From Bacteroidales bacterium (GTDB taxonomy: Bacteria; Bacteroidota; Bacteroidia; Bacteroidales; UBA932), in NCBI GenBank assembly GCA_017399865.1, contig JAFQAT010000058.1, forward strand, positions 55,052 through 119,051: a stretch of DNA of 64,000 bases, read 5' to 3'. The notes under the pieces were generated by a model, which was not told where the DNA came from, did not search any database, and saw only the letters and a list, made by a program, of their open reading frames with translations. Positions 9,501 to 30,175 of the stretch are shown here, one piece after another; the stretch's first letter is position 1; each line of letters begins with the position of its first letter. The position numbers and the translations under genes were made by a program.

Positions 9501-10836
9501 GACCAGCTTCGACGTAGTGAAGCTCGTCCAGGATGTATATGATGATTTCAGGGATGTCTCGCGTGAGCGCCAGATGGAGATGCGTATCATACGTTCCGTT
9601 GACTCGCTTATGGTCGGAGGCGATGCGATGCGTCTGGAAGCTCTTGTTTACAATCTTCTGTCCAATGCATTCAAATATACTTCCGACGGAGGAAAGATCG
9701 AGGTCGGAGTCCTGTACCGTGCAGGAGATCCGGAGTACCGCATCATGGTCAAGGACAATGGTATAGGTGTGGCCAAGGAGAATCAGAAGGCTATCTTCGA
9801 GCCTTTTACCAAAGGCACAACATCGGCATTCAAGGGAATGGCAAGCAACGGTATCGGTCTTGCCTTCTGCAAGGATATCGCAGACATCCACGGAGGTGAG
9901 ATCTGGGTGGAAAGCGACGGAAAGAGCGGATCCAAGTTCTTTGTTCGTCTTCCTGTAATGGAAGTGGATGAGACCGCACCTCAGACCGAATCTTACGGAT
10001 TGAGCAAATATAAGGCGGAAGCATCCCATCCGGAAGGTGCCCTTAAGGTCCTTGTCGTGGAGGACAACGCCGAGCTCAGGATATACATGTACAACAATCT
10101 TGTCGAAAGATATGAGGTGCGTGATGCATCGAACGGCAAGGAGGCCCTGCAGATAATAAAGGATGGCTGGATGCCGGATATGGTCGTGACTGACCTGATG
10201 ATGCCTCAGATGGATGGAATGGAGCTGATTGACAACTTACGTAATGATTTTACTACCAGCCATATACCGATCGTGATGATAACGGCAAAGCATGAGGACG
10301 ATACCCAGGTGAAGGCCTTGAAATACGGTGCTGACGGATATATAGCCAAGCCGTTTACGATGGAGCTTCTCAATGCAAGGATAGACAGCATGCTGGAAAG
10401 AAGACGCAAGCTTATGTCCATGCTTTCTGAGAGCCGTCCAGCAGAGAAAGGAAAGGTTGATATCGTGCCTGAAGAGATCGTCATCACCGACAGGGACGAG
10501 AACCTTATAAAGAAAGTGATGGCATGGCTGGAGGATAATGTCTCGAATGCTGATGTAACTGTGGACCAGCTTGCTGTCCATGTCGGCATGGGACGAACCT
10601 CCATGTACAACAAGATAAAGGGACTGACAGGAAAATCCCCGGTGGAACTTATACAGGAGTTCAGGATGAAGAAGGCTGCGTCTTATCTTAAGAGTGGCCA
10701 GCTGTCTGTGTCTGAAACTTCCTACAAGGTCGGATTCTCGGATCCGGGTTATTTCAGCAGGACATTCAAGAAGCATTTCGGAATGTCTCCTGCCGATTAC
10801 ATTAAGCACTGCCGTGCAGAGGAACATGAACAATAA
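6565..10836 (+). CDS. Hybrid two-component system sensor/regulator (HTCS)
   Basis: This 1423-residue protein joins sensor, kinase and DNA-binding parts. After a signal peptide come repeated beta-propeller strands (DSRGYLWL, DSSGYLWV, DSDGNIWLG and others, to ~720), then a Y_Y_Y domain (~745-845) ending before one membrane segment near 866-890. In the cytoplasm are HisKA with NVSHELRTPL (His917), an ATPase domain with DNGIGV and SNGIGLAFC, a receiver with the acceptor Asp1210 in VVTDLMMPQMDG, and an AraC-type HTH at the C-terminus (~1325-1420). Family members sense imported oligosaccharides in the periplasm and activate their own PUL, so this one likely responds to pectic oligomers. It sits inside the operon. 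Confidence 0.95.
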   Translation: MRILRLTYVLLLLALASAFSHAKAEPLEFIFEHYSSDEGLPHNSICDIHQDSRGYLWLCTWYGLSRYDGRSFVNYTMRPGDYSNLSHNRILSIDEDSSGYLWVTTYDMHLYRFDVDEEVFIDVSDVLKDLPFGNSKVSHVFCDSAGRVWVALSGAGLVRFDEDLSFHTFLNNSISNVGGEVAGVYEDSEGNIYVASEVGLTMISGEASSLLARNVDVVSFAEKDGHLLFACRDQLLSVDMATREQRKVDFVGLGVGEAVTMTLTGPEETLYVGFKDNAVASFDPETLQPRLKSTRMGRVRYLFPDPEGLLWIATEKTGIWSYDSRKDAFRHYEHSSNVMSYYVDTLANVTEHEGRLWIKMNNYGFGYYDRNADEIVPLDNVKELPDCRFMNGVACFHVDDTGVLWMSTVGRGLERVTIIDSKVDVIVPPSRSEDSMSSSEVRAMLRDSKGNLWVAAKSRELFRYSPDLSSCVRFPDDSGIDVGVIYSIFEDSDGNIWLGTKGDGLIRMTPDGDGWDWKHFRHNPGDRNSLSSNNIYSIAQDHDGRIWIGTYGGSLSMLRDPDSEEFITVGNSFPDYPQELCDRVRYLHCMPDGRMLVGTVGGLIVFDPSDNPELTVFNLVRKIPGDIGSLGNNDIIHIFTDSAGNTWLSTFGGGLNRLYFENSQPRFEVISTEHGMVSNIVHSAVEAKDGTIWISTEAGLSVYDPKTGIVRNLTRYDGVTPTSYSEATCARAYDGSLLFGTYDNIYRILPERFAERANGGRIEFSGLYIDGVRTPFNGKMTIPADYSFFRIDFSALDFSVSGTRTFSYKLEGYDKNWISGSGSSATYSRIPAGNYVFKVTDSFPVGSVEGREASIDIRVRPSAWTSTAAVLIYIVLGLSIVALLVRMLVTSMKLRANIRLEKDLNVIKSRFFTNVSHELRTPLTLILGGIDEIRRRMPEESPNEYSVNIVQKNARRMLTLVNQLLDTRSIADGKMRLNVTSFDVVKLVQDVYDDFRDVSRERQMEMRIIRSVDSLMVGGDAMRLEALVYNLLSNAFKYTSDGGKIEVGVLYRAGDPEYRIMVKDNGIGVAKENQKAIFEPFTKGTTSAFKGMASNGIGLAFCKDIADIHGGEIWVESDGKSGSKFFVRLPVMEVDETAPQTESYGLSKYKAEASHPEGALKVLVVEDNAELRIYMYNNLVERYEVRDASNGKEALQIIKDGWMPDMVVTDLMMPQMDGMELIDNLRNDFTTSHIPIVMITAKHEDDTQVKALKYGADGYIAKPFTMELLNARIDSMLERRRKLMSMLSESRPAEKGKVDIVPEEIVITDRDENLIKKVMAWLEDNVSNADVTVDQLAVHVGMGRTSMYNKIKGLTGKSPVELIQEFRMKKAASYLKSGQLSVSETSYKVGFSDPGYFSRTFKKHFGMSPADYIKHCRAEEHEQ

Positions 10837-10846
10837 AACGAATGCT

Positions 10847-13219
10847 ATGAATATGAAGAGGCTAATAGCGCTTATGGCAGTCTTGTCTGCCCTTACAGTA
10901 TACGGTCAGGATCCTTATTCCGTGCGCATGATACGTTCGGAGATGCAGAGGAACCCTGATGCAACCTGGCTTGACGGGCGTAAGGGCGAGCGCAAGTGGA
11001 ACTATACCACAGGACTTGAACTCAAGTCATTCCTTGACGCATCGCGCAGGTATGAACTTCCGGAAGTCGTGGATTATGTCCGTGCCTGGGCTGATACGAT
11101 GGCTACGGAGAAAGGCGAGGTATACAAGTACAAGAGATCTAACTATAACGTCGACCATATCTGCCCGGCGAGAATATATTTCGACCTCCACGACATGTAC
11201 GGAGACCAGGACAAGCGCTATCGCCGGGTGACCCGCATGATCCGAGAGCAGCTTGACACCCATCCGCGTACCGAGTCGGGAGAATTCTGGCACAAGCAGA
11301 TTTATCCGCATCAGGTATGGCTCGACGGCTTCTATATGGCTCTTCCTTTCTATGCGGAATATACGAAAAGATATGCTCCGAAAGAGCAGAAGGACTCTCT
11401 GTTCGCAGACATCGTCCATCAGTTTACCGCAGGTGCGCAGAATACATTGGATCCGAAGACCGGACTCTTCCGCCATGCGTGGGACGAGTCGAAGTCCATG
11501 TTCTGGTGCGACCCTCAGACGGGTCTTTCCGAGCATGCCTGGGGCCGTGCGAACGGCTGGTATGCCGTTGCTCTGGTCGAGGTGCTGGACTATCTTCCGA
11601 AGTCGCATCCCGGACATGACGTCCTTGTCGACCAGCTGAACTATTTCCTGGAGGTCCTGCCGAAATGGGCTGACCCGCAGACCGGTATGTGGTACCAGGT
11701 CCTTGACTGCCCTGGCAGAGAAGGAAACTATCTCGAAGCCACATGCTCGATAATGTTCACCTACGCATTCCTCAAGGGACTCCGCATGGGTTATATCGAC
11801 AGGTCGCATGAGGATTACATTCTGGGCCTTTATCCGAAGTTCATAGACCGTTTCATCAGGGAGAATCCTGACGGAACCATTTCGATGACAGACTGCTGCG
11901 CTGTCGGCGGACTCGGCGGCAAGCAGATGAGGAAGGGCGATTTCGAGTACTATCTCAGCGAACCGATAATTGAGAACGACTGCAAGGGCGTAGGCCCTTT
12001 CATCTGGGCATCGCTGGAATGGGAAGCCCGGCATAACATCGACTGGCATCCCGACAGGGAAGGCCGTCCTGTAGCTTTTGAAGGCGCAGAAGGCTGTGGT
12101 AAATATTCCATCGGCGGCAGGGGAGGAAAGGAATATTTTGTTACCTCCCTCGTTGATGACGGTTCGGAAGGCACCCTCCGCCACGCCGTTGAGGCAGAAG
12201 GCCCCCGCATCGTGAAGTTCGCCGTGAGCGGAGACATCCATCTTACCGCCCCGTTGAACATCGAGAATCCTTATCTCTCGATCTTGGGCGAGACCGCCCC
12301 GGGAAAAGGGATTACCCTTCGTGACCATAACGTCTTCATCGAGGCCGACCATGTGGTCATGCGTTATCTGCGCATACGTCTCGGATCTTCGGCCGGCGTG
12401 GAAGCGGATGCATTGGGAGCCAAGAGATGCTCGAATATCATCATAGACCACTGCTCGATCAGCTGGGCTGTGGATGAGAATGCTTCCTTCTATAATATAA
12501 ACGATGCCACAGTACAGTGGTGCATCATTTCGGAAGCCCTCAATTCTTCTGTCCATCATAAGGGAAACCATGGATATGGCGGCATCTGGGGAGGAAGGAA
12601 TGTCTCTTACCACCACAATCTCTTCGCCCACAACAACAGCCGCAACCCACGTTTCGACCATCCGCGCATCTACAGCGGCCAGGAACTGCTGACCGGCCGT
12701 GGCACGGTCGAATTCGTGAATAATGTGGTGTATAACTGGGGAATGAAGGCGATATACGGCGGAGAAGAAGGCTGGTACAACCTGATAGGCAACTGTTTCC
12801 GCCCAGGTCCGGCAACTCGCAGTCTTGATGGAGAATGGCTTGAAATCAGCACTTCAAAGACGACTTCCTTGATTCCGGGAAACTTCTGTGCATACGGGAA
12901 CGTATATGACATAAGCGCCGTTGAAGACGGCGGATACGAAGACAGGAAACCTGACATGGATAAGATAGCCTCCATGGAAGAGTATTATGCTGAAGCCTGT
13001 CAGGAGGATCCGTTTGCCGTGAGCGTACCGCTTGAATCCATGGCTCAGAGTGCCAAGGATGCTTACAAGGCGGTACTCAAGCATGCCGGGGCTTCAAAAA
13101 AACGTGATCCGGTCGACAAGAGGATCATAAGGGAAGCGAAGAAAGGAACAGCGACATACAAAGGTTCCGTGACCGGCTATCCGGGCATAATCGACCATGA
13201 AGAAGATGTACTGAAATAA
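10847..13219 (+). CDS. Fused GH105 unsaturated galacturonyl hydrolase and PL1 pectate lyase
   Basis: A signal peptide (MKRLIALMAVLSALTVYGQ) precedes two enzymes. Residues ~25-400 are GH105: WNYTTGLELKSFLDA, the conserved HQVWLDGFYMALPF and HAWGRANGWYAVAL, which belong to an alpha/alpha barrel removing terminal unsaturated galacturonate by hydration. Residues ~405-785 are a PL1-type beta-helix: IGGRGGKEYFVTSL, IIDHCSISWAVDEN and NNSRNPRFDHPR. The lyase makes the 4,5-unsaturated ends that GH105 releases, so the fusion couples successive steps. Start 10847 was chosen because the longer open frame runs back inside the HTCS gene; 10826 and 10853 are also possible. Lyase activity is inferred from motifs. 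Confidence 0.88.
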   Translation: MNMKRLIALMAVLSALTVYGQDPYSVRMIRSEMQRNPDATWLDGRKGERKWNYTTGLELKSFLDASRRYELPEVVDYVRAWADTMATEKGEVYKYKRSNYNVDHICPARIYFDLHDMYGDQDKRYRRVTRMIREQLDTHPRTESGEFWHKQIYPHQVWLDGFYMALPFYAEYTKRYAPKEQKDSLFADIVHQFTAGAQNTLDPKTGLFRHAWDESKSMFWCDPQTGLSEHAWGRANGWYAVALVEVLDYLPKSHPGHDVLVDQLNYFLEVLPKWADPQTGMWYQVLDCPGREGNYLEATCSIMFTYAFLKGLRMGYIDRSHEDYILGLYPKFIDRFIRENPDGTISMTDCCAVGGLGGKQMRKGDFEYYLSEPIIENDCKGVGPFIWASLEWEARHNIDWHPDREGRPVAFEGAEGCGKYSIGGRGGKEYFVTSLVDDGSEGTLRHAVEAEGPRIVKFAVSGDIHLTAPLNIENPYLSILGETAPGKGITLRDHNVFIEADHVVMRYLRIRLGSSAGVEADALGAKRCSNIIIDHCSISWAVDENASFYNINDATVQWCIISEALNSSVHHKGNHGYGGIWGGRNVSYHHNLFAHNNSRNPRFDHPRIYSGQELLTGRGTVEFVNNVVYNWGMKAIYGGEEGWYNLIGNCFRPGPATRSLDGEWLEISTSKTTSLIPGNFCAYGNVYDISAVEDGGYEDRKPDMDKIASMEEYYAEACQEDPFAVSVPLESMAQSAKDAYKAVLKHAGASKKRDPVDKRIIREAKKGTATYKGSVTGYPGIIDHEEDVLK

Positions 13220-13239: not shown

Positions 13240-14688
13240 ATGAAAAAAGACACTAATCAACAACTCATGACCAATTGGCGCTGGTGGATGGTGGTGCTGC
13301 TTTTTGTAGCGACTACAGTCAACTACATGGACCGCCAGGTCCTTTCCCTCACTTGGAAAGAGTTCATCGCTCCTGAATTCCACTGGACAGACAGCGATTA
13401 CGGTACAATCACAGCCGTGTTCTCCCTCTTCTATGCATTTGCAATGCTTTTCGCAGGCAAGTTCGTGGACTGGATGGGCACGAAGAAGGGCTATCTCTGG
13501 GCTATCGGAATATGGTCGTTCGGAGCATGTGCGCATGCAATCTGCGGTTGGGCGACGATGCATATCGAGGGCTATGAGTCCATCGAGGCCATGAAGGCTG
13601 TCGAGGCCGGCACAGGCGCCGCTCTTGCAATCGCATCCGTAAGCGTATGGCTCTTCCTGGCTGCGCGAGGCATCCTTGCCCTTGGTGAAGCCGGAAACTT
13701 CCCTGCAGCGATCAAGACTACAGCCGAGTACTTCCCTAAGAAGGACCGTGCGTTCGCTACTTCAATCTTCAATGCCGGTGCGTCTGTAGGTGCCCTCGTC
13801 GCTCCTGCGACCATCCCGCCGCTCGCCGCATGGCTCGGATGGGAGATGGCGTTCATCATCATCGGTGCCCTCGGCTTCCTCTGGATGGCTTTCTGGGTGT
13901 TCATGTATGACAAGCCGCAGAACTCGAAGCATGTGAACGAGGCGGAGCTCGCCTACATCCGTCAGGATGAGGACGAGCAGGTCGTGACAGATGAGGCTGC
14001 AGAAGAGAAGAGCAGCATCCCGTTCCTGAAGTGCTTCACATACCGTCAGACATGGTCATTCATCGTCGGAAAGTTCTTTACCGACGGAGTATGGTGGTTC
14101 TACCTGTTCTGGGCACCGGCATACTTCCAGGATCAGTTCGGCTATAAGGCTTCTTCCGGCACAGGAATGATGCTCATCATCACCCTTTACGCCATAGTGA
14201 CCGTAATCTCCATCTTCGGAGGCTATCTGCCGAAGCTTTTCGTGGAGCAGAAGGGTATGCATCCGTACAAAGGAAGGATGCTTGCGATGCTCATCTTCGC
14301 ATTCTTCCCTCTTTTCGCCCTCTTCGCACAGCCTATGGGCCAGTATTCTGCATGGTGGCCTGCAATAATCATCGGTCTTGCCGGTGCGGGACATCAGGCA
14401 TGGTCTGCGAACCTGTTCTCTACTGTCGGCGACATGTTCCCTAAATCAGCGATCGCTACCATTACAGGTATCGGCGGAATGGCGGGAGGCATCAGCTCTT
14501 TCCTCATCAACAAGGGAGCCGGTGTCCTTTTCACCTATTCTGAAAATGCAGGCGCAGCCTTCACATTCCTCGGATTCGAAGGCAAGGAAGCAGGATATAT
14601 GATCGTATTCTGCTTCTGTGCAGTGGCTTATATCCTGGCATGGACAATCATGAAGGCTCTGGTACCTGAATATAAGAAGATCGGATAA
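13240..14688 (+). CDS. exuT: MFS hexuronate transporter
   Basis: This 482-residue membrane protein has about 12 hydrophobic segments. Its first helix region holds RWWMVVLLFVATTVNYMDRQ, the signature start of the anion:cation symporter branch of MFS that includes ExuT. AGKFVDWMGTKKGY after helix 2 is the conserved cytoplasmic loop. The likely substrate is galacturonate, and perhaps glucuronate, taken across the inner membrane to UxaC/UxaB/UxaA. It lies 20 bases after the GH105/PL1 gene and its TAA overlaps the next ATG by one base. Substrate is inferred from family and context. Confidence 0.9.
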   Translation: MKKDTNQQLMTNWRWWMVVLLFVATTVNYMDRQVLSLTWKEFIAPEFHWTDSDYGTITAVFSLFYAFAMLFAGKFVDWMGTKKGYLWAIGIWSFGACAHAICGWATMHIEGYESIEAMKAVEAGTGAALAIASVSVWLFLAARGILALGEAGNFPAAIKTTAEYFPKKDRAFATSIFNAGASVGALVAPATIPPLAAWLGWEMAFIIIGALGFLWMAFWVFMYDKPQNSKHVNEAELAYIRQDEDEQVVTDEAAEEKSSIPFLKCFTYRQTWSFIVGKFFTDGVWWFYLFWAPAYFQDQFGYKASSGTGMMLIITLYAIVTVISIFGGYLPKLFVEQKGMHPYKGRMLAMLIFAFFPLFALFAQPMGQYSAWWPAIIIGLAGAGHQAWSANLFSTVGDMFPKSAIATITGIGGMAGGISSFLINKGAGVLFTYSENAGAAFTFLGFEGKEAGYMIVFCFCAVAYILAWTIMKALVPEYKKIG

Positions 14689-25280: not shown

Positions 25281-26075
25281 ATGGTCAATTTTTCACTTGA
25301 AGGTAAGGTTGCTCTTGTAACCGGAGCAGCTTACGGAATAGGATTCGCCATGGCCCAGGCACTTGCCGAGGCCGGCGCAAAGATAGCGTTCAACTGCCGC
25401 ACGCAGGCTAACATGGACAAAGCCATGGAGGCATACAAAGCCATCGGTATTGATGCAAGAGGCTATATCTGCGACTGTACTGACGAGGCCGGAGTGAAGG
25501 CGATGGTCGAAGACATCGCCAGGACCCTCGGCCCTGTGGACATCCTGGTCAACAATGCAGGTATCATCAAGCGCATCCCTATGCATGAAATGGCAGCGGA
25601 AGAGTTCCGCCAGGTCGTGGACATCGACCTCATCGCACCATACATCTGCGCAAAGGCAGTCCTTCCAGGCATGATGGAAAAGAAGGCGGGAAAGATCATC
25701 AATGTATGCTCCATGATGTCCGAGCTTGGACGTGAGACCGTTTCGGCTTACGCTGCTGCGAAGGGCGGACTCAAGATGCTGACAAGGAACATCGCATCCG
25801 AGTACGGCCAGTACAACATCCAGTGCAACGGTATCGGTCCCGGTTATATCGCGACACCTCAGACAGCTCCGCTTCGCGAGCCTCAGGCTGACGGAAGCCG
25901 TCATCCTTTCGACTCGTTCATCGTCGCAAAGACTCCTGCAGAGCGCTGGGGTACCCCTGAAGACCTCATGGGACCTGTAGTGTTCCTCGCTTCAAATGCT
26001 TCTGACTTCGTGAACGGCCATGTCCTTTATGTGGACGGAGGTATCCTTGCATATATCGGAAAGCAGCCAAAGTAA
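25281..26075 (+). CDS. kduD: SDR dehydrogenase, probable 2-deoxy-D-gluconate 3-dehydrogenase / DKII reductase
   Basis: The 264-residue classical SDR has the nucleotide-binding motif TGAAYGIG (~14-21), NNAG near 90 and the catalytic YAAAK. No signal peptide is present, so it is cytoplasmic. Family members are annotated as gluconate 5-dehydrogenase or KduD. Because kduI, KDG kinase and KDPG aldolase follow, the KduD reaction is favoured: reduction of 2,5-diketo-3-deoxygluconate to 2-keto-3-deoxygluconate. The ATG at 25281 was chosen over an upstream frame extension because it gives the usual SDR N-terminus (FSLEGKVALVTG). The next gene starts two bases after the stop. Confidence 0.88.
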   Translation: MVNFSLEGKVALVTGAAYGIGFAMAQALAEAGAKIAFNCRTQANMDKAMEAYKAIGIDARGYICDCTDEAGVKAMVEDIARTLGPVDILVNNAGIIKRIPMHEMAAEEFRQVVDIDLIAPYICAKAVLPGMMEKKAGKIINVCSMMSELGRETVSAYAAAKGGLKMLTRNIASEYGQYNIQCNGIGPGYIATPQTAPLREPQADGSRHPFDSFIVAKTPAERWGTPEDLMGPVVFLASNASDFVNGHVLYVDGGILAYIGKQPK

Positions 26076-26076
26076 T

Positions 26077-27471
26077 ATGGAACAGGTATTCGGATACATA
26101 ATCGGTCTGGGCGCCGCGGTGATGATGCCTATCATCTTCACCATCCTCGGCGTCTGCATCGGCATCAGGTTCAGCAAGGCCCTCAAGAGCGGACTTCTTG
26201 TAGGCGTCGGCTTCGTCGGCCTTTCTGTCGTCACATCGCTTCTTACCAGCACCCTCGGACCTGCATTGAGCAAGGTCGTTGAGATCTACGGGCTTCAGCT
26301 CAAGGTATTCGACATGGGATGGCCTGCGGCCGCATCAGTCGCATACAACACATCTGTCGGAGCCCTCATCATCCCGGTATGTCTGGGAGTGAACATTCTC
26401 ATGCTCGTCACGAAGACGACAAGGACAGTGAACATCGACCTCTGGAACTACTGGCATTTCGCATTCATAGGTGCAGTCGTATATTTTGCGGCAGACAATA
26501 TATGGTGGGGCTTCTTCGCGGCAATCATCTGCTATATCCTTACCCTTATTCTTGCCGACTATACGGCCGACAGGTTCCAGAAGTTCTATGACGGAATGGA
26601 AGGAATATCCATCCCGCAGCCTTTCTGCGCTGGTTTCGTGCCTTTTGCAGAGGTCATCAACAAGGGTCTCGACAAGATCCCCGGCATGGACAAGCTGGAA
26701 ATCGATGCGGAAGGAATGAAGAAGAAGTTCGGCCTTCTTGGCGAACCTCTCTTCCTCGGAATCCTCGTCGGAATCATCATCGGCTCCCTCTCATGCGAGT
26801 CATGGAAGGAAGTGGTGGACAAGATTCCTTACATCCTCGGCGTCGGCATCAAGATGGGTGCGGTCATGGAGCTCATTCCTCGCATCACATCCCTTTTCAT
26901 CGAGGGTCTGAAGCCTATTTCGGAGGCAACCCGCGATATGATCGACAGAAAGTTCAAGGGAGCAAAGGGTCTGAACATCGGAATGAGCCCGGCTCTTGTG
27001 ATCGGCCATCCTGCGACCCTCGTGGTTTCGCTCCTGCTGATTCCGGTGACCCTCATTCTTGCGGTCATCCTGCCGGGCAATGAATTCCTCCCTCTGGCAT
27101 CCCTTGCCGGAATGTTCTACATCTTCCCTTTGGTCCTTCCTATAACCAAGGGAAATGTAGTCAAGACATTCATCGTGGGACTGGTTGTGATCCTGATCGG
27201 ACTTTACTTCGTTACTGACCTGGCTCCGTTCTTCACACAGGCAGCCCAGGATGTGTTCGCAAAGACCGGTGATGCAGCTGTGGCCATACCTGCAGGATTC
27301 GAAGGCGGATCTCTTGATTTCGCATCCAGTCCTCTTGCATGGGTGATATTCCACCTCTCGTACTCGCTCAAGTGGATCGGTGCAGGAATTCTGGTCCTCC
27401 TTACAATGGGACTTGCAATCCTCAATCGCCGTGCAATCATCAGATATCAGAAACAAAATACCAACATATGA
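26077..27471 (+). CDS. Orphan PTS EIIC of the galactitol type (GatC-like permease)
   Basis: This 464-residue integral membrane protein has about 9-11 hydrophobic segments and GatC-family features ([20 protein letters not shown] near the start, then [18 protein letters not shown] and [11 protein letters not shown]). No EIIA, EIIB, HPr or enzyme I gene occurs anywhere in the window, so phosphorylating transport looks unlikely. It lies between kduD (two-base gap) and kduI (four-base overlap). That suggests uptake of an unsaturated-uronate product such as 5-keto-4-deoxyuronate or its isomer. Family is clear; substrate and mechanism are inference. Start 26077 was chosen because the longer frame runs back into kduD. 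Confidence 0.85.
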
Positions 27472-28409
27472 AAAAAATAGTTTTACTGACAGCAATGACA
27501 CTTATGACTCTTGCAGCAAACGCACAGCTGAACTACACCGTTCAGACAGCATGTCATCCTGATGACGTGAAGCATTACGACACGGAGCGCCTCCGCAGCG
27601 CCTTCCTTATGGAGAAAGTCATGTCTCCTGACGAGATCAACCTTACATATACCCTTTACGACCGTCTTATATATGGTGGCGTGATGCCTGTGACCAAGAC
27701 CCTCGTGCTCGAGGCATTCGACGAACTGAAGGCTGAGCATTTCCTTGACAGGCGTGAGCTGGGAGTCATCAATGTAGGCGGCCCGGGCGTCGTTACAGTG
27801 GACGGCAAGGAGTATCCTATGATCTTCAAGGAAGGACTTTATGTGGGTTGCGGTAAGAAAGAGGTTACTTTCAGAAGCGTTGATCCTGCAAACCCTGCAA
27901 AGTTCTACATCAACTCGACTCCAGCATACAAGGAGTATGTGACCCAGCTCATCACTACAGACAAGAACGCCGATCCGAAGAAGTATGCGATCGCTCAGTC
28001 GGACAAGTACGGAAAGATGGAGGACAGCAACGACCGCGTCGTTAACCAGCTCATCGTAAGCTCTGTGCTCAGCAAGGTGAAGGGCGGCGGAACAAACCAG
28101 CTCCAGATGGGCCTCACAGAGCTCAAGCCGGGTTCAGTATGGAACACAATGCCTGCACACACCCACACCCGCCGTATGGAGGCATACTTCTACTTCAACG
28201 TGACTCCGGGCAACGCAATCTGCCACCTCATGGGCGAGCCTAAGCAGCAGCGTCTCGTATGGATGCAGAATGAGCAGGCCATCACTTCTCCTGAATGGTC
28301 CATCCATGCTGCGGCAGGAACCAGCAACTACATGTTCATCTGGGGAATGGGTGGCGAGAACCTTAACTATGGTGACAAGGACGAGATTCCATACACTGAA
28401 ATGAGATAA
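27468..28409 (+). CDS. kduI: 4-deoxy-L-threo-5-hexosulose-uronate ketol-isomerase with an apparent signal peptide
   Basis: The 313-residue protein matches KduI over its length. It has [43 protein letters not shown] and the metal-binding cupin motif [15 protein letters not shown], where His and Glu residues hold zinc. The family isomerises 5-keto-4-deoxyuronate to 2,5-diketo-3-deoxygluconate. The oddity is the N-terminus: [20 protein letters not shown] is a textbook signal peptide with an ANAQ cleavage site, about 20 residues before the normal KduI start. It would place the enzyme in the periplasm. The start overlaps the EIIC stop (ATGA), so no shorter start in that overlap is likely. Confidence 0.92.
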
Positions 28410-28425
28410 TAAAAAACACATAATC

Positions 28426-29466
28426 ATGGCAAAAGTCATTACATTCGGTGAGATCATGCTCAGGCTTTCGACTCCTGGCTATCTCCGATTCAATCAGGCA
28501 AAACAGTTCGAAGCGACTTTCGGCGGCGGAGAGGCAAACGTGGCCGTATCTCTTGCAAACTATGGCATAGAGACTGAATTCGTGACCAGATTCCCGAAGA
28601 ACGACATAGCACAGAGCTGCATCAAGGACCTCCACAGCTATGGCGTAGGCACGAAGCATTGCGTGTTCGGCGGTGACCGTCTCGGAATCTACTTCCTTGA
28701 GACTGGAGCGGTAGCACGTCCGAGCAAGGTCGTTTATGACCGCGCACATTCGTCCATCGCCCAGATCGAGAAGGGCATGATCGATTGGGAGAAGGTCTTC
28801 GAAGGAGCAGACTGGTTCCATTGGACAGGAATCACCCCTGCAATCAGCCAGGGCGCCGCAGACGTATGTCTTGAGGCGATTCAGGCTGCCAACAGGCTCG
28901 GAATCACCGTTTCATGCGACCTTAACTATCGCAAGAACCTCTGGAAGTACGGCAAGACAGCATCTGAAGTGATGCCGGAACTCGTGGCAGGCTGCGATGT
29001 GATCCTTGGAAATGAGGAAGATGCAGAAAAGGTGTTCGGAATCAAGCCTGAAGGATTCGATGTTACTGCGACAAAGGGCGAGGTAAATGCAGCTGAGTTC
29101 GAAAGCGTATGCACCCAGCTCATGGCGAAGTTCCCACGTGCAAAGAAGGTGATCATCACCCTGCGCGGCTCGATCAACGCGAACCACAATACATGGGGAG
29201 GCGTCCTCTACAGTAACGGAACTCTTTATCAGTCGCCTCGTTATGACATCACCCATATCGTTGACCGCGTAGGCGGCGGCGATTCGTTCATGGGCGGTCT
29301 CATTTACGGTCTTCTTACTTACACAGATGACGACCAGAAGGCACTCAATTTCGCTGTTGCGGCATCATGCCTCAAGCATACGATTTTCGGAGATTTCAAT
29401 CAGGTTACCGTTGCCGAGGTGGAGAACCTCATGAAGGGTGACGGATCGGGACGTGTATCACGTTAA
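28426..29466 (+). CDS. kdgK: 2-keto-3-deoxygluconate kinase (PfkB family)
   Basis: The 346-residue sugar kinase has the PfkB start (MAKVITFGEIMLRLSTPGYL), a GGGEANVAVSLANYG substrate region near residue 30 and the C-terminal catalytic motif VGGGDSFMGGL with the base Asp. It phosphorylates KDG to KDPG with ATP in the cytoplasm. Its place between the KDG-forming kduI/kduD genes and the KDPG aldolase makes this substrate much more likely than fructose or another sugar. It follows kduI by 16 bases. Confidence 0.9.
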   Translation: MAKVITFGEIMLRLSTPGYLRFNQAKQFEATFGGGEANVAVSLANYGIETEFVTRFPKNDIAQSCIKDLHSYGVGTKHCVFGGDRLGIYFLETGAVARPSKVVYDRAHSSIAQIEKGMIDWEKVFEGADWFHWTGITPAISQGAADVCLEAIQAANRLGITVSCDLNYRKNLWKYGKTASEVMPELVAGCDVILGNEEDAEKVFGIKPEGFDVTATKGEVNAAEFESVCTQLMAKFPRAKKVIITLRGSINANHNTWGGVLYSNGTLYQSPRYDITHIVDRVGGGDSFMGGLIYGLLTYTDDDQKALNFAVAASCLKHTIFGDFNQVTVAEVENLMKGDGSGRVSR

Positions 29467-29509: not shown

Positions 29510-30175
29510 ATGGCAAAGTACAATAAACAACAGGTGATAGCGGCAATGAAGGAGACAGGAATGGTTCCTGTCTTCTACAATGCCGACCTTGAGACCGCAA
29601 AGGCGGTAGTAAAGGCTTGCTATGAAGGCGGCGTACGTGCCTTCGAATTCACAAACCGCGGAGATTTCGCCCATGAAGTGTTCGGCGAGCTCGTGAAGTA
29701 TGCGAACAAGGAGCTTCCTGGAATGATTCTGGGCATCGGTTCCGTTGTCGACGCTCCAACGGCTGCGCTTTACCTTCAGCTCGGAGCAAACTTCGTTGTA
29801 GGACCTCTCTTCAATCCTGACATCGCTCCTGTCTGCAACCGTCGTCTGGTGCCTTACTGCCCTGGATGCGGAACCGTATCGGAAGTAGGAAAGGCTCAGG
29901 AACTGGGATGCGACCTATGCAAGGTCTTTCCTGGAGATGTCCTCGGACCTGCATTCGTGAAAGGACTCAAGGCTCCTATGCCTTGGAGCCAGATCATGGT
30001 GACAGGAGGAGTGAAGCCTACCAAGGAGAATCTTGAAGGCTGGTTCAAGGCCGGAGTGACCTGCGTCGGCATGGGAAGCAACCTCTTCCCTAAGGAAGCG
30101 ATAGCTGCCAAGGACTGGGCTGCAATAACCGCCCTCTGCCGCGATGCCCTGGCAATTATCAGCGAAGTCAGATAA
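29510..30175 (+). CDS. eda: KDPG / 4-hydroxy-2-oxoglutarate aldolase
   Basis: The 221-residue protein is a class I aldolase of the Eda family. It has [14 protein letters not shown], the catalytic Glu in AFEFTNRG (Glu46) and the Schiff-base Lys138 in [10 protein letters not shown]. It splits KDPG into pyruvate and glyceraldehyde 3-phosphate, the end of the pathway served by both the galacturonate and unsaturated-uronate branches here. ATG 29510 was chosen; a TTG six bases earlier and an out-of-frame ATG at 29499 were rejected. Confidence 0.93.

Follow-up and report, generated by a model that had tools for sequence, protein, structure and literature searches.

In the textbook KduI-KduD pathway, known from Dickeya and Escherichia coli, every step is cytoplasmic. 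Here we examine a variant of that pathway in a 64,000-nucleotide stretch of DNA from a Bacteroidales bacterium (assembly GCA_017399865.1, contig JAFQAT010000058.1, positions 55,052 to 119,051; hereafter, the window). In this stretch, the gene for a KduI isomerase with a predicted signal peptide overlaps the gene for EIIC, a permease of the galactitol type otherwise associated with the phosphotransferase system (PTS). The isomerase family, a short-chain dehydrogenase/reductase (SDR), KdgK, and KdgA are shared with Dickeya and E. coli. The difference is spatial: the isomerase is predicted to be exported, so that an intermediate would have to pass through the inner membrane before the reductase could act on it.

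Elements of this arrangement are already in print. The portions of PMC6281302 considered here describe a galactitol-IIC homologue (TC 4.A.5.1.4), one in each of five of seven Bacteroides strains, for which a PTS mechanism is excluded and a role as secondary carrier is suggested. This orphan IIC apparently belongs to the same protein group as the window EIIC; those portions call its genes monocistronic, and name neither a substrate nor a KduI partner. Likewise, the kduI-dhuD hybrid clusters of Bacteroidota, as presented in excerpts of PMC12838403, encode the same isomerase and reductase families. In those excerpts the dhuD-dhuI cluster is missing from Bacteroidota, and one sentence puts type H (kduD-dhuI) among the Bacteroidota types, whereas by its counts 40 of the 41 type H strains are Pseudomonadota. 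The main text of that survey of 3,550 strains does not contain the term "signal peptide", and "periplasm" appears once, about Dickeya. Finally, E. coli mutants of galactitol-type EIICs (GatC and GatC-like) pass glucose or xylose unphosphorylated, according to sections of PMC12089948 and PMC10989795. These are likewise uncoupled carriers, but they are laboratory mutants, whereas the EIIC described here belongs to a natural, conserved lineage.

We found no report of an exported KduI, or of a KduI-EIIC pairing, among the open-licence PubMed Central (PMC) papers searched. Exported KduI goes unmentioned in the consulted portions of PMC12269599, PMC9067506, PMC5306329, PMC6045597, PMC4769552, and PMC8993927.

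An Isomerase with a Predicted Signal Peptide

The window KduI belongs to the equivalog family NF002091 (369.5 bits; cut-off 250), matches seven PDB KduI sequences (E 1.2e-137 to 4.5e-76), and contains the motifs HTHTRRME and WSIH. Among KduI proteins encoded beside an EIIC, the pattern HxH....E is present in 75 of 79 and both motif patterns in 68 of 79; the four without HxH....E are shortened copies, with 105-171 residues beyond the domain start.

The KduI amino terminus has the form of a Sec/signal peptidase I (SPase I) signal peptide of the Bacteroidetes Q-rule kind: a basic n-region, a hydrophobic core, and an AxA-type site (here ANA) followed by Gln at position +1. Gln occupies this position in 69 of the 80 KduI leaders called, matching the description of Bacteroidetes SPase I substrates in the part of PMC5837995 considered here. 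Over 287 aa, the PDB chain 9kd0_A and the exported KduI of Bacteroides xylanisolvens (locus L046) have 100% identity. This chain begins one residue ahead of the predicted mature Gln, which is chain residue 2, so the mature form has already been prepared by someone; no paper describing 9kd0 was found among the open-licence PMC papers searched. We consider a periplasmic location for KduI very probable.

How general is this leader? We sampled 247 Bacteroidales genomes evenly; KduI was matched in 57 and EIIC in 7, and by coordinates EIIC adjoins KduI in all seven. Among the 59 KduI proteins above cut-off in this sample, a signal peptide is present in 7/7 EIIC-linked copies (six from the script count, plus the window KduI) versus 0/52 unlinked copies. 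Two genomes (G078 and G182) carry both kinds: an exported KduI beside EIIC, and a leaderless KduI elsewhere. Over all loci read, the signal peptide occurs in 79/79 linked and 1/63 unlinked KduI proteins; a further 97 from the wider phylum have none, bringing the unlinked total to 1/160. The single unlinked copy with a leader is in locus L158, from a genome whose EIIC lies on another contig. Across the wider phylum, EIIC was above cut-off in 3 of 395 genomes, every one of them from the window's own taxonomic order, with a match under cut-off in G311.

The all-loci totals include 80 EIIC loci from named genomes, which are the best 80 of 581 relatives and hence biased toward the window's own kind; the even samples are the fair test. 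BLAST saw no KduI in five of these loci (L021, L028, L068, L069, and L079). The sequence stops about 250 bases or less from EIIC in L021 and L079 and about 1.6 kb beyond it in L069, and L028 has its KduI on another contig; in L008, KduI is in pieces. The counts leave out KduI copies without an amino terminus, identical copies, three fragments under cut-off, and wider-phylum rows under cut-off.

Signal peptides were called with our own script. A first version called 41 of 92 KduD proteins positive, because the Rossmann glycine loop resembles a hydrophobic stretch; the tightened version requires K or R among residues 2-6 and an early hydrophobic window. With it, the controls gave 1/92 for KduD, 0/35 for KdgK, and 0/31 for KdgA, and 15/77 for EIIC, a membrane protein. 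The 247-genome count used the first version, with amino termini additionally read by eye; for the wider-phylum count, the tightened rule was applied and its distance limit relaxed slightly. An artefact of start-codon choice was considered and rejected: some start codon gives a leader in every linked KduI, and none does in 159 of the 160 unlinked. Distances from start to domain (29-35 residues with a leader, 4-17 without) were not relied on, since they are partly built in by choosing the nearest start for leaderless copies.

These counts confirm that an exported KduI and a PTS-free EIIC form a conserved module in a subset of Bacteroidales (7/247 in the even sample). By the same genomic evidence, the arrangement is common to many gut Bacteroidales and is no peculiarity of the source genome.

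A Permease with No PTS Partners Found

EIIC matches PF03611 and the GatC/UlaA fold, and thus is a member of the EIIC-GAT family. (VIA-align rows ranking under GatC and UlaA were disregarded as unrelated.) The protein falls short of the galactitol-specific PTS IIC model TIGR00827 (390.7 bits; cut-off 542.2), and is at most 46% identical to five plasmid-encoded EIICs. Unlike galactitol-type EIICs, it has Ser in place of Asp at residue 304: Ser is found in 43/43 aligned Bacteroidales orphan EIICs, whereas Asp is found in 15/15 aligned plasmid relatives and at the equivalent position of PDB 9u82.

The source genome, a 2.19 Mb draft that is 78% complete, contains one EIIC-GAT and no match to the enzyme I N-domain, HPr, or PF02302 EIIB; this absence is weak evidence by itself, because the draft is incomplete. 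Among 41 EIIC-bearing genomes, matches to the enzyme I N-domain and to PF02302 EIIB number 0/41 each (EIIA, PF00359, was not searched, and HPr was searched in the source genome only). Three of these genomes (G025, G059, and G151) have 99% completeness, and the same searches are positive in E. coli, Bacillus subtilis, and other controls. G025 and G266 share match coordinates and look like one genome, making 40 distinct genomes of the 41. The Bacteroidales EIIC thus differs from GatC (PDB 9u82) and UlaA (4rp9) in having no EIIB or enzyme I match in its genomes. We also inspected 16 plasmid EIIC regions, of which one Bacteroidota plasmid record and one other lack annotation. In the 14 annotated regions, IIA or IIB lies beside IIC in 13, and none is listed in the Staphylococcus one. 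These results support an EIIC that operates without a working PTS.

The reductase (ATG 25281, stop 26075) opens directly with a Rossmann-type segment and has no leader, supporting a cytoplasmic location. It passes the gluconate 5-dehydrogenase model NF005488 (476.1 bits; cut-off 369) and fails the kduD model TIGR01832 (224.8 bits; cut-off 338.85). By these two family scores, rather than by a DhuD model, it is DhuD-like, and fits the hybrid kduI-dhuD type of Bacteroidota in the excerpts of PMC12838403.

An earlier note on this DNA, made from the letters and open reading frames (ORFs), anticipated much of the above. Its gene coordinates and its four-base overlap between EIIC and kduI are exact (ATGA, 27468-27471, comprising the kduI start and the EIIC stop), and the signal peptide that it read on KduI recurs in homologues as described. 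It also held that KduD has no signal peptide, which agrees with the reductase amino terminus; its name for that enzyme survives as a KduD/DhuD-type SDR but not as KduD proper. It saw no PTS genes in the window, and that absence now extends to the genome and to the other EIIC-bearing genomes within the searches listed. Lastly, the upstream GH105 hydrolase to which it assigned release of unsaturated galacturonate is present, as a signal-peptided member of the GH88/GH105 family fused to a pectate lyase.

A Proposed Pathway Split across the Inner Membrane

These features suggest a mechanism that we consider probable as a whole. The exported hydrolase-pectate lyase would free unsaturated galacturonate in the periplasm, where the ring would open to yield 5-keto-4-deoxyuronate (DKI). 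Exported KduI would convert DKI to 3-deoxy-2,5-hexodiulosonate (DKII), also in the periplasm, and the orphan EIIC would move DKII across the inner membrane unphosphorylated, as a facilitator or secondary carrier. The cytoplasmic reductase would then convert DKII to 2-keto-3-deoxygluconate (KDG), with KdgK and KdgA completing the pathway. Saturated galacturonate would enter separately, through the ExuT-like carrier. Isomerization outside the cytoplasm might serve to remove the reactive aldehyde of DKI, or to supply the form that EIIC binds.

The mechanism draws on two sources: established family biochemistry for the KduI, reductase, KdgK, and KdgA reactions; and sequence, in the form of predicted signal peptides, gene order, missing PTS partners, and the joint occurrence and shared history of EIIC and exported KduI. 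The predicted KduI location and its pairing with EIIC are well supported, whereas the substrate, direction, and energetics of EIIC are what we infer. Two considerations constrain the scheme. Because the reductase acting on DKII lacks a leader, DKII must cross the inner membrane. In addition, exported KduI is the sole KduI match in 26 of the 41 EIIC genomes (25 of them distinct), so that conversion of DKI to DKII inside those cells would be impossible without another isomerase (DhuI was not searched).

Several observations weigh against this scheme. Thirteen of the 41 EIIC genomes have a second KduI match, leaderless in 13/13, so an all-cytoplasmic route may coexist in some; the remaining two have KduI in pieces and no KduI match, respectively. 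The latter (G278) has EIIC nonetheless, and in G262 the exported KduI is unlinked from its EIIC. Signal peptides were called with a simple script of our own and not with SignalP; the linkage of KduI and EIIC could mean co-regulation rather than a shared substrate; and the 79 linked copies share descent and are not independent events, so we claim no significance test. The earlier note's proposed departure from the all-cytoplasmic pathway stands for KduI export, the cytoplasmic reductase, the lack of a working PTS, and the stable pairing of KduI with EIIC, and is qualified by those 13 genomes. Its unphosphorylated import through EIIC would follow from topology in genomes where exported KduI is the sole isomerase.

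Alternative Explanations

The most serious alternative, although considerably less probable, accepts a periplasmic KduI but has EIIC carry DKI, KDG, galacturonate, or some other product, the two genes being linked through common use of pectin. Pectin genes surround many EIIC loci, so that other pectin-derived sugar acids would fit, and one genome has EIIC with no KduI. However, the locus already encodes an ExuT-like carrier for galacturonate; in 26 of the 41 genomes, isomerizing imported DKI inside the cell would require an unrelated enzyme such as DhuI; and it is specifically with EIIC that the KduI signal peptide tracks. A different objection concerns KduI itself, whose leader is known by prediction only: the amino terminus might be no working signal peptide, or KduI might end at the surface or in vesicles, with no periplasmic step feeding EIIC. 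This seems improbable given the Gln at +1 in most called leaders, as in Bacteroidetes SPase I substrates, the starting residue of the 9kd0_A chain, and the near-perfect division of leader-giving start codons between linked and unlinked copies.

It is equally hard to credit that exported KduI acts chiefly on another periplasmic uronate, galacturonate or glucuronate, with DKI still being isomerized in the cytoplasm. According to the part of PMC3578941 considered, E. coli KduI contributes to the conversion of both compounds, but no other KduI for the DKI step was found in those same 26 genomes, and the locus encodes an exported GH88/GH105-family hydrolase as a likely source of DKI. Least probable by far is that EIIC belongs to a PTS whose remaining parts lie elsewhere or were not assembled, making import phosphorylation-coupled. 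PF03611 membership, the GatC-like fold, and an incomplete window genome would allow it; the lack of any enzyme I or PF02302 EIIB match in all 41 EIIC genomes, three of them nearly complete, argues against it, as does the absence of PTS phosphoryl-transfer proteins from the seven Bacteroides strains in the portions of PMC6281302 considered.

Evolution of the Module

In a KduI tree (103 rows, quick method), exported copies form one group of 49 rows (SH-aLRT 93), and only two changes of signal-peptide state are needed. The group's single leaderless member is a second KduI of locus L004 (14201-15124, minus strand), about 81% identical to the window's by BLAST. It lies 4.8 kb from EIIC, beside genes that by eye are UxuA- and UxuB-like, and looks like a return to the cytoplasm.

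An EIIC tree was built by a careful method from 37 rows, including 22 of the 43 orphans; it drew long-branch warnings. One branch (100/100) separates the Bacteroidales EIICs from the plasmid EIICs, the nearest of which is a plasmid-borne EIIC of Clostridioides difficile (97/93). Whether the orphans are nested among PTS EIICs depends on the root, placed here at the midpoint. The simplest account is one acquisition of EIIC followed by descent. By a somewhat narrow balance, we favor a fuller history in which Bacteroidales acquired a PTS permease a single time. The permease would then have shed its phosphotransfer partners, exchanged a conserved Asp for Ser304, and evolved in concert with a KduI to which a signal peptide had been added. 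The result would be a two-gene module with EIIC as a dedicated DKII carrier. If so, the order of transport and isomerization has been swapped, and an enzyme was moved across the membrane to suit its transporter.

The Locus and Its Variants

The module lies in a one-strand operon (reductase, EIIC-GAT, kduI, kdgK, kdgA) downstream of a pectin utilization locus (Table 1). Sixteen bases separate kduI from kdgK, and 43 separate kdgK from kdgA. For EIIC, the start that agrees with homologues is ATG 26077, whereas the ORF tool gives an earlier in-frame ATG at 26020.

The pectin locus encodes a tagaturonate reductase, an altronate/galactarate dehydratase family protein, a GH28 enzyme, a pectinesterase with a GDSL domain, a hybrid two-component regulator, a GH88/GH105-family hydrolase (PF07470), an ExuT-like major facilitator superfamily (MFS) carrier, SusC, SusD, and two fibronectin-domain proteins. 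The hydrolase (PF07470, E 8.3e-91) and a carboxyl-terminal part matching pectate lyase 9buj (E 6.4e-73) make up a single exported protein, which may couple cleavage by the lyase to the release of unsaturated galacturonate; this protein is the predicted source of periplasmic unsaturated galacturonate. The ExuT-like permease probably imports saturated galacturonate.

Table 1. Positions of the module, its operon, and selected pectin genes in the window.
Feature	Position	Strand	Basis or remark
Pectin utilization locus	318-25201		SusC, SusD named by eye
GH88/GH105-family hydrolase fused to pectate lyase, signal peptide with Q at +1	10826..13219	+	Likely start ATG 10853
ExuT-like MFS permease	13240..14688	+	MFS_1; TIGR00893 161.7 bits, under cut-off 395
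SDR reductase, KduD/DhuD-type, no signal peptide	25281..26075	+	Pfam adh_short, NF005488
Orphan EIIC-GAT permease, 464 aa	26077..27471	+	PF03611
EIIC codon 304 (Ser)	26986..26988	+	Alignment
kduI	27468..28409	+	NF002091; PDB 9kd0 match, E 1.2e-137
KduI signal peptide, predicted cleavage before Q20	27468..27524	+	Own script; 9kd0_A N-terminus
kdgK	28426..29466	+	PF00294
kdgA, 2-keto-3-deoxy-6-phosphogluconate (KDPG) aldolase	29510..30175	+	PF01081; NF005499 above cut-off

Related loci were compared by BLAST with the window proteins. Among 58 EIIC loci of at least 17 kb, an ExuT-like gene is present in 27, a GH88/GH105-family gene in 18, and CE8 in 16; among 16 unlinked KduI loci of about 14 kb, the corresponding counts are 2, 0, and 0.

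Some loci depart from the window's arrangement. L068 (7207-11119), from genome G278, has genes for reductase, EIIC, KdgK, and KdgA but lacks kduI, and KduI went unmatched across that genome as well. L142 (genome G211) and L143 (G151) contain the EIIC-KduI pair with no KduD, KdgK, or KdgA neighbor visible by eye in 14 kb ORF lists; one other SDR gene is present in L143. L187 (OY725991.1, 4458-5846) encodes an EIIC, 83.6% identical, on a record of 82 kb that is described as a plasmid of Phocaeicola massiliensis, and would represent either a mobile copy or a mislabelled contig. EIIC-KduI loci also occur in drafts titled Paenibacillus sp. and Clostridiales (L026 and L074); these titles probably are wrong, because the KduI proteins group with Bacteroidales in the tree.

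Implications

The module offers a function and a candidate substrate for the orphan IIC of many gut Bacteroidales, and would distribute over periplasm and cytoplasm a pathway that textbooks confine to the latter. It also makes a general question testable: how does a group translocator turn into a plain carrier? Residue 304 offers one position at which to probe this, and related genomes that have or lack the module serve as natural controls. Moreover, the arrangement may bear on the question of which intermediates of pectin breakdown gut bacteria might lose or share with one another.

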